Source of the DNA: Bacteroidales bacterium
Lineage (GTDB): Bacteria > Bacteroidota > Bacteroidia > Bacteroidales > UBA932
Direction: 5' to 3'
Assembly: GCA_017509685.1 (NCBI GenBank)
Contig: JAFWPA010000074.1
Location: forward strand, 1-35,823
Length of the DNA: 35,823 nucleotides
Of the stretch, positions 23,022 to 26,637 are shown in pieces. The notes under the pieces are model-generated. The model searched no databases, was not told where the DNA came from, and was given only the letters and a program-made list of their open reading frames with translations. Each line of letters opens with the position of its first letter. Position 1 is the first letter of the stretch. The translations under genes and the position numbers were made by a program.

Positions 23022-23055
23022 TCCGTGCACGAAAATGGCCTCCCCGGTGCACGGA
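23022..23055 (+). repeat. REP-like palindromic unit A1
   Basis: Perfect 9-bp arms TCCGTGCAC (23022-23030) and GTGCACGGA (23047-23055) flank a 16-nt loop. It matches unit B1 (25134) at all but one of about 40 bases and lies 51 bp before unit A2. It is read as part of a RAYT-linked repeat family. Confidence 0.8.
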
Positions 23056-23071
23056 CCCTCGTTTTTGGGCA

Positions 23072-23107
23072 CCCCGTGCACGAATAAGCCCTCTCTGGTG
23101 CACGGGG
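23072..23107 (+). repeat. REP-like palindromic unit A2
   Basis: Perfect 10-bp arms CCCCGTGCAC (23072-23081) and GTGCACGGGG (23098-23107) flank a 16-nt loop; AGCCCTC (23087-23093) and GAGGGCT (23107-23113) offer an alternative stem. The GTGCAC core is 51 bp after that of A1. It resembles unit B2 (26603) and, reversed, the copy after lepA (29034). Confidence 0.8.
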
Positions 23108-23166
23108 AGGGCTATGTAGTTGGGGAACGTCGTGGCCCGTAGCGATGTCATATCCGTGTTTTTTGT

Positions 23167-23174
23167 TAATTTTG
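23167..23174 (+). promoter_or_regulatory. -7 promoter element of menA
   Basis: TAATTTTG fits TAnnTTTG and ends 4 nt before the menA ATG, the same arrangement as at 549 and 21071. A -33 TTTG at the expected distance is not seen. Confidence 0.5.
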
Positions 23175-23178
23175 TAGT

Positions 23179-24087
23179 ATGAAATTCAAAGCCGCCATTC
23201 AATCCATGCGCCTGCGTACGCTGCCGCTTTCCTGCGCCGGCGTGCTGCTGGGCATACTCCTGGCCGCGGCCGACTGGAAGGTAGACCTCCTCACGGCCGT
23301 CCTAATTGTGATTACTACCGTTTGCCTGCAAATTCTGTCCAACCTGTCCAATGAGCTGGGAGATGTGCTGCAGGGCACGGACACAGCCGAACGCCAGGGC
23401 CCGCAATACGGCCTGAACAGCGGCGGAATGAGTGTGGCTGATATGAAGCGGCTCATCGGGACCTTCGTCGTCCTGTGTATGGTCTTTGGGGTTGCCATGA
23501 CCTGGCGGGCATTTGGTACCCTGTGGGAACTCACGCCCATTATGGTGCTCCTGTTGGGCGCAGCGGCCATTGTGGGAGCCATGAAGTACACACTGGGGCC
23601 CAATCCCTACGGTTACCGGGCCAAAGGTGATATCTACGTGTTTCTGTTTTTCGGCCTTGTGGCCGTGCTGGGTTCGTATTTTGTCTGCACCCAGGGACTG
23701 GGACTTCACTGGAAATTGCTGCTTCCGGCCACTGGCGTAGGCTGCTTCAGCGTAGGCGTCCTCAACGTGAACAACATCCGGGACATGAAGACCGATGCCG
23801 CGAACCGGGTCACGGTAGCCATCAAGTTGGGATTGCAGCGGGCCCGCATCTACCAGACAGTGCTGATTATCCTGGGCTGGGCCTGTATGATTGCCTATTG
23901 CTTGCTGTGCTGGCCGTCCTGGTGGCACTGGGTATGGGTGATTACCTTACCATTATATATTAAGCACCTTCACGGCGTCTGGACCCTCGAAGACCGCGCC
24001 CTGGACCCCATGCTGCCCCTGCTGGTCATGTCCACCTTCGCCCTCTGCCTCCTCTACGGCCTCGGCTTCTGCGCCTTCCTGTTTTAG
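23179..24087 (+). CDS. menA: 1,4-dihydroxy-2-naphthoate polyprenyltransferase
   Basis: A 302-residue UbiA-family membrane enzyme that attaches the isoprenoid tail to 1,4-dihydroxy-2-naphthoate in menaquinone synthesis. About eight to nine hydrophobic segments are visible. The two Asp-rich, Mg-prenyl-diphosphate binding motifs are NLSNELGDVLQGTD (55-68) and NNIRDMKTD (198-206), both in MenA form. The N-terminal RLRTLPLS is also typical. It has its own near-leaderless promoter. Its 3' end overlaps the end of the convergent RAYT-like gene by 4 nt, so the two share no terminator space. Confidence 0.92.
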   Translation: MKFKAAIQSMRLRTLPLSCAGVLLGILLAAADWKVDLLTAVLIVITTVCLQILSNLSNELGDVLQGTDTAERQGPQYGLNSGGMSVADMKRLIGTFVVLCMVFGVAMTWRAFGTLWELTPIMVLLLGAAAIVGAMKYTLGPNPYGYRAKGDIYVFLFFGLVAVLGSYFVCTQGLGLHWKLLLPATGVGCFSVGVLNVNNIRDMKTDAANRVTVAIKLGLQRARIYQTVLIILGWACMIAYCLLCWPSWWHWVWVITLPLYIKHLHGVWTLEDRALDPMLPLLVMSTFALCLLYGLGFCAFLF

Positions 24088-25001
24088 CGTTTGGCTGCCA
24101 GAGGAAACAGCGCATCTACATCGGCCTGCGCCAACCGGATGATTCGGGCCAATTGCTTGTTGGAGGAATGATACTGGTTCTTGACCTTCACGGCCAGCTC
24201 TTTTTTCTGTTGCAGCGTAAGTTTAAATATATAATCCTCTCCAAAGACCTTTTTGCTCATGGCAATAACAATGGGTCTTAGTTCTTCGTCGTTCAAGGCG
24301 GAGTCTTCACCGTATCGTAATGAGACTTCCGTCAGGGCCTCCACGTTTTTCAAGATACTGTAGATAAACTGTCGGGCGCTGTCATAGAGTGACATAACCA
24401 GTTCATAGTCTACGAAACTCCAGGGCTGGGCCATTCCATCCTTAACATATATGCGCGGGTCCACTGTCTCCAACATTCGGGAGCAGGTGAAAGCCCTTAA
24501 TGCCCTTCCTTTAAGGGTTGAGGCGGACACCCCCTCCTTAACAAGCAAGGGGTTGAAATACAGAAATGCCGTAGACCAGGGGTCGGCAAACACATTCACT
24601 TCCGGCCTTACGACAAAAGCATTGCGTACCACATACGCAATCTCTGTCTGCATTTGTTGCAAGTTTTTGATGGGGGTTATGCCACAAGTGACAGATTTCA
24701 TAAGATGTCCCCTCTCGTGATGGGCAAAATAGTTGTCCATCAGTTGTTTGAAGCGCTCATAGAAAGATACGCACCGTTCTTTTGACCCAGCTAGGACAAA
24801 ATGAAAATGGTTGGTCATGATTGCGTATGCCAGCATCGTACAACCTGTTTCCATAACGGAAATGGCCATATAATTGACAGCGATGGCGCGCTCGTCATCT
24901 GAATTGAAAAACACATCGCTTTCCAGCGCTTTGGTGTACATGTGATAACTGGGAGTCATTCGCAGGAATGCGGTTTCTGCAGGGGATTCGTAACGGTACA
25001 T
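24084..25001 (-). CDS. REP-associated tyrosine transposase-like protein (RAYT, IS200/Y1 type)
   Basis: A 305-residue protein of the Y1/IS200-like superfamily. The metal-binding HUH motif is HFH at 65-67 in AIMTNHFHFVLAG, and Tyr91 (LMDNYF) is the best candidate for the catalytic tyrosine. The C-terminal 50 residues (NKQLARIIRLAQADVDALF, 281-299) look like a helix-turn-helix. RAYTs are single-copy, domesticated relatives of IS200 transposases that cut and move REP palindromes. ATG 25001 is chosen: the frame is open further upstream to 25256, but that part has no other internal ATG and would translate the repeat at 25134. Base composition is more AT-rich than neighbours. A small hairpin (25004-25022) lies at the start codon. 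Confidence 0.8.
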   Translation of the reverse strand: MYRYESPAETAFLRMTPSYHMYTKALESDVFFNSDDERAIAVNYMAISVMETGCTMLAYAIMTNHFHFVLAGSKERCVSFYERFKQLMDNYFAHHERGHLMKSVTCGITPIKNLQQMQTEIAYVVRNAFVVRPEVNVFADPWSTAFLYFNPLLVKEGVSASTLKGRALRAFTCSRMLETVDPRIYVKDGMAQPWSFVDYELVMSLYDSARQFIYSILKNVEALTEVSLRYGEDSALNDEELRPIVIAMSKKVFGEDYIFKLTLQQKKELAVKVKNQYHSSNKQLARIIRLAQADVDALFPLAAKR

Positions 25002-25133
25002 ACACTTGTTTTTGAGACAAGTTAAGAATGATTTCTTAAACAGAACCGTCAAAACATTAAAATGTGGCGAAAATAGAAATAGAGGGGTGAATGACCAGAA
25101 TCCTGCAAAATAAATACATTTTTTGAAGGATTG
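25002..25133. other. Intergenic leader of the RAYT-like gene
   Basis: This AT-rich stretch separates the RAYT-like start from repeat unit B1. It holds a hairpin ACTTGT/ACAAGT (25004-25009, 25017-25022) next to the start codon. No full TAnnTTTG promoter was found; a near match lies around 25109-25117 on the minus strand. No gene is seen. Confidence 0.4.
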
Positions 25134-25167
25134 TCCGTGCACGAAAATGGCCTCCCTGGTGCACGGA
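25134..25167 (+). repeat. REP-like palindromic unit B1
   Basis: Perfect 9-bp arms TCCGTGCAC (25134-25142) and GTGCACGGA (25159-25167) with a 16-nt loop, nearly identical to A1. It lies about 130 bp upstream of the RAYT-like start codon and 10 bp before the insertion element. Confidence 0.8.
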
Positions 25168-25216
25168 CCCTCGATTTTGAACTGCGCCCCAAAATTTGGA
25201 CATAAAAAGTAAAGAA

Positions 25217-25738
25217 ATGAAGAAGAATGAAAATTACCCCAAGTATGTCCAAGCAATGCATCTAATGGATGAAGGGAAGAGCATCAATTATGTCTGTCAG
25301 TTGCTAAAAATGGGACAGGTTACTGTTAAGCTAATACGTCAGCGATATCTAAGAGGTGGAGAATTAGCTTTATTGCATCCTCAATACCAGCCTCTTCGTG
25401 ATACCGAAACAAAAATCAAAATATTAAGGGATATCACGGATAATCACCTATCTTTGCTGAACGCATCGCTTAAGTATGACATTCAAGTCTATACGATTAG
25501 GCGCTGGATACACGCCTATCAGACAAACGGAATAGCCGGACTTACGCGCAAACGCAAACAGACAAGCATGAAAAAGAAAAGGCAAAGAGCTGAAGCTGAG
25601 CTAGATGAGCTCGAGAAACTGCGTAAAAGGAACGAGTATCTCGAAGCTGAGAATGCTCTGTTAAAAAAAGTGAAGGCCTTAGTCGAAGAAAGGGAGAACC
25701 GTCTACGCGCGATTGGGCGGGGGCCATCCAAGAACTAA
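25217..25738 (+). CDS. IS3-family transposase OrfA
   Basis: A 173-residue DNA-binding subunit. A helix-turn-helix region (about 20-45) and a second HTH-like part (about 75-115) are followed by a long basic and acidic coiled-coil (about 120-165) typical of OrfA leucine-zipper segments. ATG 25217 is the first ATG; a TTG 21 bases upstream would fall in the inverted repeat. Near its end, at 25663-25669, is an A7 slippery run where a -1 shift would join it to OrfB as the active OrfAB transposase. Confidence 0.9.
   Translation: MKKNENYPKYVQAMHLMDEGKSINYVCQLLKMGQVTVKLIRQRYLRGGELALLHPQYQPLRDTETKIKILRDITDNHLSLLNASLKYDIQVYTIRRWIHAYQTNGIAGLTRKRKQTSMKKKRQRAEAELDELEKLRKRNEYLEAENALLKKVKALVEERENRLRAIGRGPSKN
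25663..25669 (+). other. Programmed -1 frameshift site (A7)
   Basis: In the orfA frame the codons are TTA AAA AAA GTG, giving a slippery A AAA AAA heptamer. The -1 frame is open from here through orfB with no stop and encodes the usual link RDWAGAIQELRPKY before STFYYY, so a fused transposase is expected. Confidence 0.75.
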
Positions 25739-25779
25739 GGCCGAAGTACCGTCTTGACCTCCTCCTGGAGATCAAGGAG

Positions 25780-26565
25780 ATGGCCAGATCCACATTCTAT
25801 TACTATTACGATAATGAGAAGCCTGACAAGTGGGCTGTCGAGAGGCAGCGGCTTGTAGAGTTGTATCATGAGAACAAAGGAAGATACGGATATAGAAGGC
25901 TTACCAAGGCCCTCAAAAATGAGGGATATAGCATTAGTAGTAAGACGGTTAGGCGCTTAATGAACGAGACCGGCATCAAGTGCGAAGTCAGAATGAAGAA
26001 GTATAAGTCTTACAAGGGCGAGGTTGGGAAGGTCGCGCCCAATCTGCTCGAAAGGGACTTCCAAGCAGAGGCTCCTCACCAGAAGTTGGTTACGGATGTA
26101 ACTGAGTTCCATTTGTTTGGAGAAAAGATATATCTGTCTCCTGTCTTGGACCTTTACAATAGCGAAATCATCTACTATACCATCTACAGGCGTCCGGTAT
26201 TGGACATGGTTATGGATATGATTGACGGGACGATAGAAGTTATCGGGAACAAGACTAATGCAATATTACACTCTGATCAGGGGTGGCAATATCAAAATAA
26301 AAAATACCAGAACAAGTTGAAAGATAACAATATACGGCAGAGTATGTCTAGAAGGGGGAACTGTCTGGACAATGCCGTGATGGAAAACTTCTTTGGACTA
26401 TTGAAGTCGGAATTGTTATATTTGCAAAAGTTCACTTCTGTTGACCACTTCCTCAAGGAGCTCGAAGAATATCTTCGATACTACAACGAGGAGCGAATCA
26501 AGGAAAAACTAAATGGAATGAGTCCGGTACAATACCGAACTAATAGTCGAATATCTTATTGTTAA
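25780..26565 (+). CDS. IS3-family transposase OrfB (DDE integrase core)
   Basis: A 261-residue catalytic part. An HTH_21-like region (about 25-75, with GRYGYRRL at 34-41) leads into the rve integrase core with Asp106 (TDVTEF), Asp166 (HSDQG) and Glu202 (NAVMENFF), spaced DD(35)E; the downstream LKSEL fits the family K/R position. The frame extends upstream without a stop to the A7 site, so the working protein is probably the OrfAB fusion (25217-26565); ATG 25780 would give OrfB alone. No damage is seen, so the element may be active. Confidence 0.93.
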   Translation: MARSTFYYYYDNEKPDKWAVERQRLVELYHENKGRYGYRRLTKALKNEGYSISSKTVRRLMNETGIKCEVRMKKYKSYKGEVGKVAPNLLERDFQAEAPHQKLVTDVTEFHLFGEKIYLSPVLDLYNSEIIYYTIYRRPVLDMVMDMIDGTIEVIGNKTNAILHSDQGWQYQNKKYQNKLKDNNIRQSMSRRGNCLDNAVMENFFGLLKSELLYLQKFTSVDHFLKELEEYLRYYNEERIKEKLNGMSPVQYRTNSRISYC

Positions 26566-26602
26566 ATCCGTCCAACAAAAGGGGCGCACATCATTTTGGG
26601 CA

Positions 26603-26637
26603 TCCAGTGCACGAATAAGCCTTCCCTGGTGCACGGA
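26603..26637 (+). repeat. REP-like palindromic unit B2
   Basis: GTGCAC (26607-26612), a 16-nt loop and GTGCACGGA (26629-26637); the left outer arm has one substitution (TCCAGTGCAC). After removing the insertion element and one TTT, its GTGCAC core lies exactly 51 bp after that of B1, as between A1 and A2. The trailing ACCCCTCATTTTGAG resembles the spacer between units, hinting that the array was once longer. Confidence 0.8.

Follow-up and report, generated by a model that had tools for sequence, protein, structure and literature searches.

Palindrome pairs at a fixed 50-52 bp spacing accompany a RAYT-like gene family of Bacteroidales

The window analysed here is a stretch of 35,823 nucleotides (contig JAFWPA010000074.1 of assembly GCA_017509685.1, Bacteroidales bacterium, UBA932) that carries a gene for a Y1/HUH protein resembling the REP-associated tyrosine transposases (RAYTs; REP, repetitive extragenic palindrome), together with two arrays, A and B, of a short palindrome (Table 1). 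An initial annotation, made from the letters alone, had described inverted GTGCAC arms around a 16-nt loop; four such units could be located, at positions 23025, 23076, 25137 and 26607, and they exceed chance. The pattern GTGCAC N{8,24} GTGCAC is matched five times in the window (one match bridging the gap between A1 and A2) against 0.05 expected, and none of 100 shuffles reached five. As had also been reported, A1 and B1 differ by a single base over the first 40 nt, with two mismatches over 46 nt. The arms extend past the GTGCAC core (TCCGTGCAC/GTGCACGGA in A1 and CCCCGTGCAC/GTGCACGGGG in A2), and the A pair folds as single-stranded DNA into two hairpins (z -3.7; one of 200 shuffles equally stable). 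Neither Rfam nor PADLOC returned a match for the window.

The two units of array A lie 51 bp apart. In array B as sequenced they are separated by 1,470 bp because an IS3-family element of 1,416 bp sits between them, and removal of this element leaves 51 bp, as in array A. The claim that the cores are exactly 51 bp apart in both arrays therefore stands for array A, and for array B once the insertion, which had been overlooked, is taken out. Array B is a single array split by an insertion sequence (IS), and the reading of B1 and B2 as two separate sites is ruled out. The ends of the element can be placed at 25178-26593 with a 3-bp duplication TTT, or at 25179-26592 with ATTTT; no second copy was found in the draft genome. 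Array A lies about 1 kb from the Y1 gene because a UbiA-family (MenA-like) gene intervenes. Two further GTGCAC pairs of the same genome, at loci L007 (G000:C28, about 1590-1757) and L005 (G000:C21, about 1580-1738), were seen by eye to lie within about 100 bp of an intron-like end and of a second IS-like open reading frame (ORF) at contig ends. If the IS of array B is included, GTGCAC pairs may be favoured by mobile elements.

Table 1. Features of the window around the RAYT-like gene.
Feature	Positions	Strand	Basis
RAYT-like Y1/HUH protein, 305 aa; core about residues 14-145 (H65, H67, Y123), then a C-terminal extension of about 160 aa	24084..25001	-	
Palindromic unit A1 (TCCGTGCAC-16 nt-GTGCACGGA)	23022..23055	+	pattern search, hairpin fold
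Palindromic unit A2 (CCCCGTGCAC-16 nt-GTGCACGGGG), 51 bp after A1	23072..23107	+	pattern search, hairpin fold
Palindromic unit B1, first half of array B	25134..25167	+	pattern search
Palindromic unit B2, second half of array B	26604..26637	+	pattern search, IS subtraction
IS3-family insertion, ORFs 25196-25738 and 25780-26565, imperfect terminal inverted repeats	25178..26593	+	ORF family matches, end analysis
UbiA-family (MenA-like) gene, between array A and RAYT-like gene	23179..24087	+	

In the translated protein the HFH motif was verified at residues 65-67, and the tyrosine belongs to a YVVRNA motif at a HuH-Tyr distance of about 58. When 33 sequences including the window protein were aligned (three rows with an in-frame stop read as X), M62, H65, H67, Y123, R126 and N127 were invariant in all of them. 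Profile-profile comparison by hhalign of the family (28 sequences) with five Bacteroidota Y1 proteins of 180-200 aa gave a probability of 98.7% over 132 N-terminal columns; this match covers the whole core, with HUH and Tyr lining up, and such sequence comparison points clearly to a link with the Y1/HUH (TnpAY1) superfamily. The window protein has no match to Pfam Y1_Tnp, a model that matches 12 of the 28 aligned members at E up to 0.1 (best 7.6e-5), and with 18.2 bits it falls below the curated cut-off of 80 bits of NCBIfam REP_Tyr_transpos (REP-associated tyrosine transposase), which 15 of the 28 members match at E up to 0.01. Among solved structures, weak matches to transposase chains only were obtained (best E 0.0035). 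The C-terminal part appears, as we read the sequence, to end in a helix-turn-helix, and the corresponding Pfam search gave one weak match among the 28 members. Matches to the window protein elsewhere in its own genome are 23-25% identical; an IS200/IS605 insertion sequence, for which several near-identical gene copies would be expected, does not fit.

At 1e-10, 100 of the 121 genomes of a genus sample have a relative of the protein (381 matches, up to 11 per genome), and at 1e-20 so do 92 of the 199 genomes and 11 of the 25 genera of a family sample, with a maximum of at least 12 per genome. In a phylum sample 62 of 394 genomes match, and past position 191 of the 296-position model only the window's own match extends; the same order is represented there by five genomes among the matches listed, so near relatives outside the family are thinly covered. 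The sole named relative found, in the uncultured Bacteroidales bacterium RUG619 (55% identity), shows, on inspection by eye, a menA-RAYT block with GTGCAC units on both sides, its upstream array having grown to seven units at 51 bp. The menA-RAYT order is also kept in genome G028, where the array lies only upstream of the RAYT gene; the ortholog is 63% identical and the core is changed to GAGCAC, with both arms altered. At the place of array A, where an empty site was sought, G028 has no array but its neighbouring gene differs. Directly adjoining a GAGCAC unit, at L045 (G028:C63) 1228-1467, is a tandem repeat of 84 bp (2.9 copies, 92% matches) with palindrome-like stretches, possibly a further palindrome family.

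The association of such genes with palindrome pairs was measured on 33 of the 381 genus matches, namely the best scoring per genome and three paralogs in the window genome; the weak match L014 (E 0.0035) was excluded from the flank and alignment tests. For each locus the best pair of similar-stem palindromes was taken within 400 bp on each side, with a maximum score of 24 and periods of 44-57 allowed. Of the 65 near flanks, 37 reached a score of at least 21; they belong to 23 of the 33 loci, and all 37 pairs have a period of 50-52. Among flanks resampled by an order-1 Markov model 4 of 650 attained that score, and among distal ones 1 of 61. A stricter first detector found pairs at 12 of 33 loci and in none of 1,320 Markov flanks. 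Further loci, a series run without control, reached 21 in 15 of 20 cases, always at 50-52. At 30 other loci, scanned over periods 30-109, 5 of 50 flanks reached 21 against 9 of 250 resampled flanks, and at period 51 only RUG619 (24) and locus L093 (21) did so. The GT[AG]G foot was found in none of 8 window half-sites and in 12 of 148 half-sites at other loci, for 14.3 expected from letter shuffles.

Dispersal of the pairs was followed in G081, a nearly complete genome of the same genus, of which 2.347 of 2.358 Mb were scanned without prior knowledge of the stems and for which the gene map came from a codon-usage caller. At spacings of 50-52 bp, 71 pairs score at least 22 and 46 at least 23. 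Over periods 30-120 the scan gave 59 pair matches at 50-52, 28 at the double period of 100-102 and at most four at any other, and the same scan of an order-2 Markov genome gave none. The pairs are intergenic in 64 of 71 cases, as against 9.5% of random windows. Seven RAYT genes of this genome are full-length and three further matches are partial; by their stems, 66 of the 71 pairs could be assigned to six of the seven full-length genes (15, 14, 12, 11, 11 and 3 pairs). An arm test dispensed with chosen cores: of 55 dispersed pairs, 26 agree with their own flanking arms at 7/8 or better, whereas 30 draws of foreign flanks averaged 5.3 such pairs and never exceeded 10. Unit arrays at G081:C10:39627-40093 and C9:24992-25169 were called coding, and are either miscalled ORFs or palindromes within genes.

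One G081 family, GACGGTCC, comprises 24 units, all of them paired at exactly 51 bp. Its inner stem is nearly constant, its 5-nt loop is variable (23 loops in 24 units) and its outer arms are kept paired: 147 of 168 cells are paired for a shuffle mean of 124, and no shuffle among 2000 was as high. Changes on both sides affect 21 cells (again 0 of 2000 shuffles as high), of which 16 reflect one standing left/right difference (CTGTA versus ACGTA), so that independent compensations number about five. A REPIN consists of two REPs in inverted orientation that move as one unit; here doublets are the rule, as the complete pairing of these units illustrates, but loops read in direct as well as in inverted order. 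Of the 24 units, 20 have GT[AG]G ahead of the stem, 16 have C[TC]AC behind it and 15 have both, which makes 36 of 48 half-sites. It is the sole footed family among six in G081, where classical-looking and foot-less palindromes thus coexist in one genome. The 14-bp spacer TTTTGGGGCGTTTT occurs in both orientations; in 12 elements this central spacer is found either way round between fixed outer arms, as if it flipped alone. The GACGGTCC pattern is matched 23 times in G081, by one pair in G060, singly in eight genomes and not at all in the other 111 of the 121; since a reversed control pattern matches 22 genomes, the single matches are at chance level. The G060 pair (G060:C194:332-405) has nearly the loops of G081:C1:190308, and may be an old shared site or a relic.

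The GTGCAC family itself counts ten units in five pairs in the draft genome of the window (nine found by pattern and one diverged partner by eye). Its pattern is matched four times in G028 and three times in G001, which hold the closest orthologs among the sampled genomes, by single 3-mismatch matches in G036, G044 and G082, and in none of the remaining 115 of 121 genomes. The initial annotation had expected tens of copies, mostly outside genes. The dispersed copies do lie outside the main ORFs (short overlapping ORFs being disregarded by eye); tens were reached only in the relative G081, with the 24 units of one family. A third family occurs in G021 with 16 units, of which 15 lie 52 bp from a neighbour in the list, and gives single matches in 3 of 120 other genomes. 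Each of the three patterns is thus concentrated in the genome or genomes carrying the cognate gene. Across families the gap between the arms ranges from 5 to 22 nt. A palindrome family that flanks the gene and is also dispersed between genes, as in a RAYT/REPtron, is found for the window and for its relatives.

The data show that genes and palindromes are associated in a gene-specific manner, that the spacing is fixed, that the palindromes are paired and lie between genes, and that the catalytic residues are conserved. We consider it probable that the proteins are a branch of domesticated Y1 (RAYT-type) transposases which radiated within one Bacteroidales family and works with private doublet palindromes; binding, cutting, mobility, a role of the C-terminal part and a benefit to the host are what we infer. 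The doublet consists of two palindromes of about 30-37 bp placed 50-52 bp apart, sometimes extended to arrays at the same period. The HUH/Tyr core would nick and rejoin single-stranded DNA at the hairpins of the cognate palindromes, for example during replication, and the C-terminal part might aid recognition of the pair and set its spacing. Doublets would slowly spread to intergenic sites, each gene remaining single-copy. The near-constancy of 50-52 bp across unrelated stems suggests that a dimer or oligomer of the protein measures this distance, on double- or single-stranded DNA.

Several observations weigh against this reading. Copy numbers are low, and the second RAYT gene of the window genome has only its four flanking units, none being dispersed by pattern. 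No scoring pair was found in 28 of the 65 near flanks, including both of the window, which fail because of the IS and the menA gene. Over 30 loci, stem similarity did not follow protein identity (rho 0.06, 311 of 2000 permutations as high), by a measure that misreads some palindrome frames. The GT[AG]G foot is absent from the window family and from five of the six G081 families, with 0 or 1 half-sites each. In G081 the seventh full-length RAYT gene (C7:94507) has no scoring pair nearby and five pairs match no RAYT gene; the stem cores used for assignment were chosen by hand from the flanks, which is why the arm test was added. Most of the both-sided stem changes in GACGGTCC are one difference between left and right units, and the G060 pair of that family comes from a draft genome, 72% complete, where no RAYT match reached 1e-10. 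Finally, empty sites that would attest movement were found neither in G028 nor in G081, where the search at a dispersed site returned divergent coding matches only.

A chance origin of the palindromes is ruled out by the window shuffles, the Markov flanks and the period profile of G081. The chief alternative, which we regard as unlikely, is that the protein was repurposed as a DNA-binding regulator or architectural protein whose C-terminal part would read double-stranded palindromes, a pair about five helical turns apart binding one oligomer; the palindromes would then be operators or anchor sites under selection and not mobile copies. The rigid spacing of 50-52 bp, close to five turns, would suit such a binder, as would the location of pairs between genes, the near-constant GACGGTCC stems with their differing loops (23 in 24 units) and the G060 pair, whose loops, nearly shared with a G081 pair, indicate that copies may be old and not freshly made. 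A pure binder would however have no need of the invariant HUH and Tyr residues; the arm gap, varying from 5 to 22 nt between families, is unlike a fixed dimer operator, and the C-terminal helix-turn-helix is a reading of the sequence accompanied by that one weak Pfam match among 28 members.

It is very improbable that the palindromes are bidirectional terminators or mRNA-stabilising structures kept by the host, beside which RAYT genes merely insert. Of 48 dispersed intergenic pairs in G081, 20 lie between convergent, 19 between tandem and 9 between divergent genes, and the enrichment at convergent sites, which hold 17% of intergenic bases, speaks for this reading. Those nine divergent locations speak against it, as do the presence of a RAYT gene's own stem family beside it, the match of dispersed pairs to own and not foreign flanks, and the large absence of the stems from related genomes. 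Correction of imperfect palindromes by template switching is a known process that would give covariation, and matched stems could in principle arise in this way from quasi-palindromes at replication, with neither selection nor a protein; we accord this the same very low probability, as it leaves unexplained the fixed spacing, the stems common to distant sites and the flanking of RAYT genes, and equally good palindrome pairs are missing at other spacings in the G081 scan.

Within the reading as a domesticated transposase branch, a stronger proposal can be made tentatively, and we rate it somewhat short of an even chance: this would be an unclassified RAYT subclass, in this sampling confined to one Bacteroidales family, that acts solely on pairs 50-52 bp apart, with stem (specificity) and spacing (architecture) evolving separately and six or more orthogonal protein-palindrome systems per genome. 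For asking how RAYTs recognise their palindromes, and why hosts retain them, this gene family of gut-type bacteria offers a natural library: 381 matches in 121 genomes, 23 of 33 tested loci with a pair, one spacing, differing stems and several genes per genome. As the spacing is one and the stems differ, specificity (by stem swap) and geometry (by spacing change) can be tested separately. The family may also provide orthogonal Y1/palindrome pairs as tools, and such pairs, 71 in the 2.35 Mb of G081, enlarge the intergenic DNA of their genome. The observation from which this study started, a RAYT-like gene with its own palindrome family and array-type repeats in Bacteroidota, is confirmed as real and proves broader than first reported, and as to the kind of system the RAYT/REP interpretation is supported.

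That RAYTs can have private REPs, and that REPs can form doublets, is already known. A literature search, mostly of titles and abstracts outside subscription journals and without the 2017 RAYT classification, did not find fixed 51-bp pairs or this subclass, which does not establish their absence from print. The suggestion that the system is undescribed was too strong: Bacteroidetes RAYTs with atypical flanking structures are in print (PMC6006769), although the window protein has other motifs. Genes of the published group in question, TnpAY1 subclass 2.6 (Bertels group 5), have atypical secondary structures on their flanks, and copies of these occur at other places in the genome (Quentin et al. 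2018, PMC6006769). The subclass shares with the present family the Bacteroidota host, the Y1/HUH core, gene-flanking structures without a GT[AG]G consensus and genomic copies. Its proteins have a median of 179 aa, a YIH[QN]NP motif and a median HuH-Tyr distance of 82 (PMC6006769), unlike the window protein with its 305 aa, Y[VI]xRN, distance of about 58 and long C-terminal extension. Four sampled YIHRNP proteins of about 190 aa had no pair scoring 21 at 50-52 bp; L093 (YIHDNP, about 190 aa) has one flank with a score of 21 at period 51, but that score is equally attained by 9 of 250 resampled flanks.

In its length and C-terminal extension the window protein resembles the longer RAYT-like proteins named TIRYTs or subclass 2.1 (Di Nocera 2013, PMC3733652), whose extension is said to hold helix-turn-helix domains (Quentin et al. 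2018, PMC6006769); those proteins are described, in the parts of these papers considered, with terminal inverted repeats or no REPs (PMC3733652, PMC6006769), unlike the present ones. In a sampled family of roughly 320-aa proteins (f19), no pair scored 21 or more. The window protein fits none of the published subclasses with which it was compared. The feet of the GACGGTCC family resemble the double-foot REPs of subclass 2.4 (PMC6006769), a likeness of the palindromes that is limited to GACGGTCC among the families examined. With the RAYT/REP and REPIN systems of Gammaproteobacteria (Nunvar 2010, PMC2817692) the family has in common about one gene per repeat family, repeats flanking the gene, intergenic dispersal and doublets, and perfect palindromes also occur in one REP group (Corneloup 2021, PMC8266576). 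It differs from the gammaproteobacterial systems in the lack of a GTAG foot in the window family and in five of the six G081 families, in having 3-15 pairs per G081 family in place of a high copy number, with at least 12 family genes in one genome, and in a fixed 50-52 bp period that extends into arrays.

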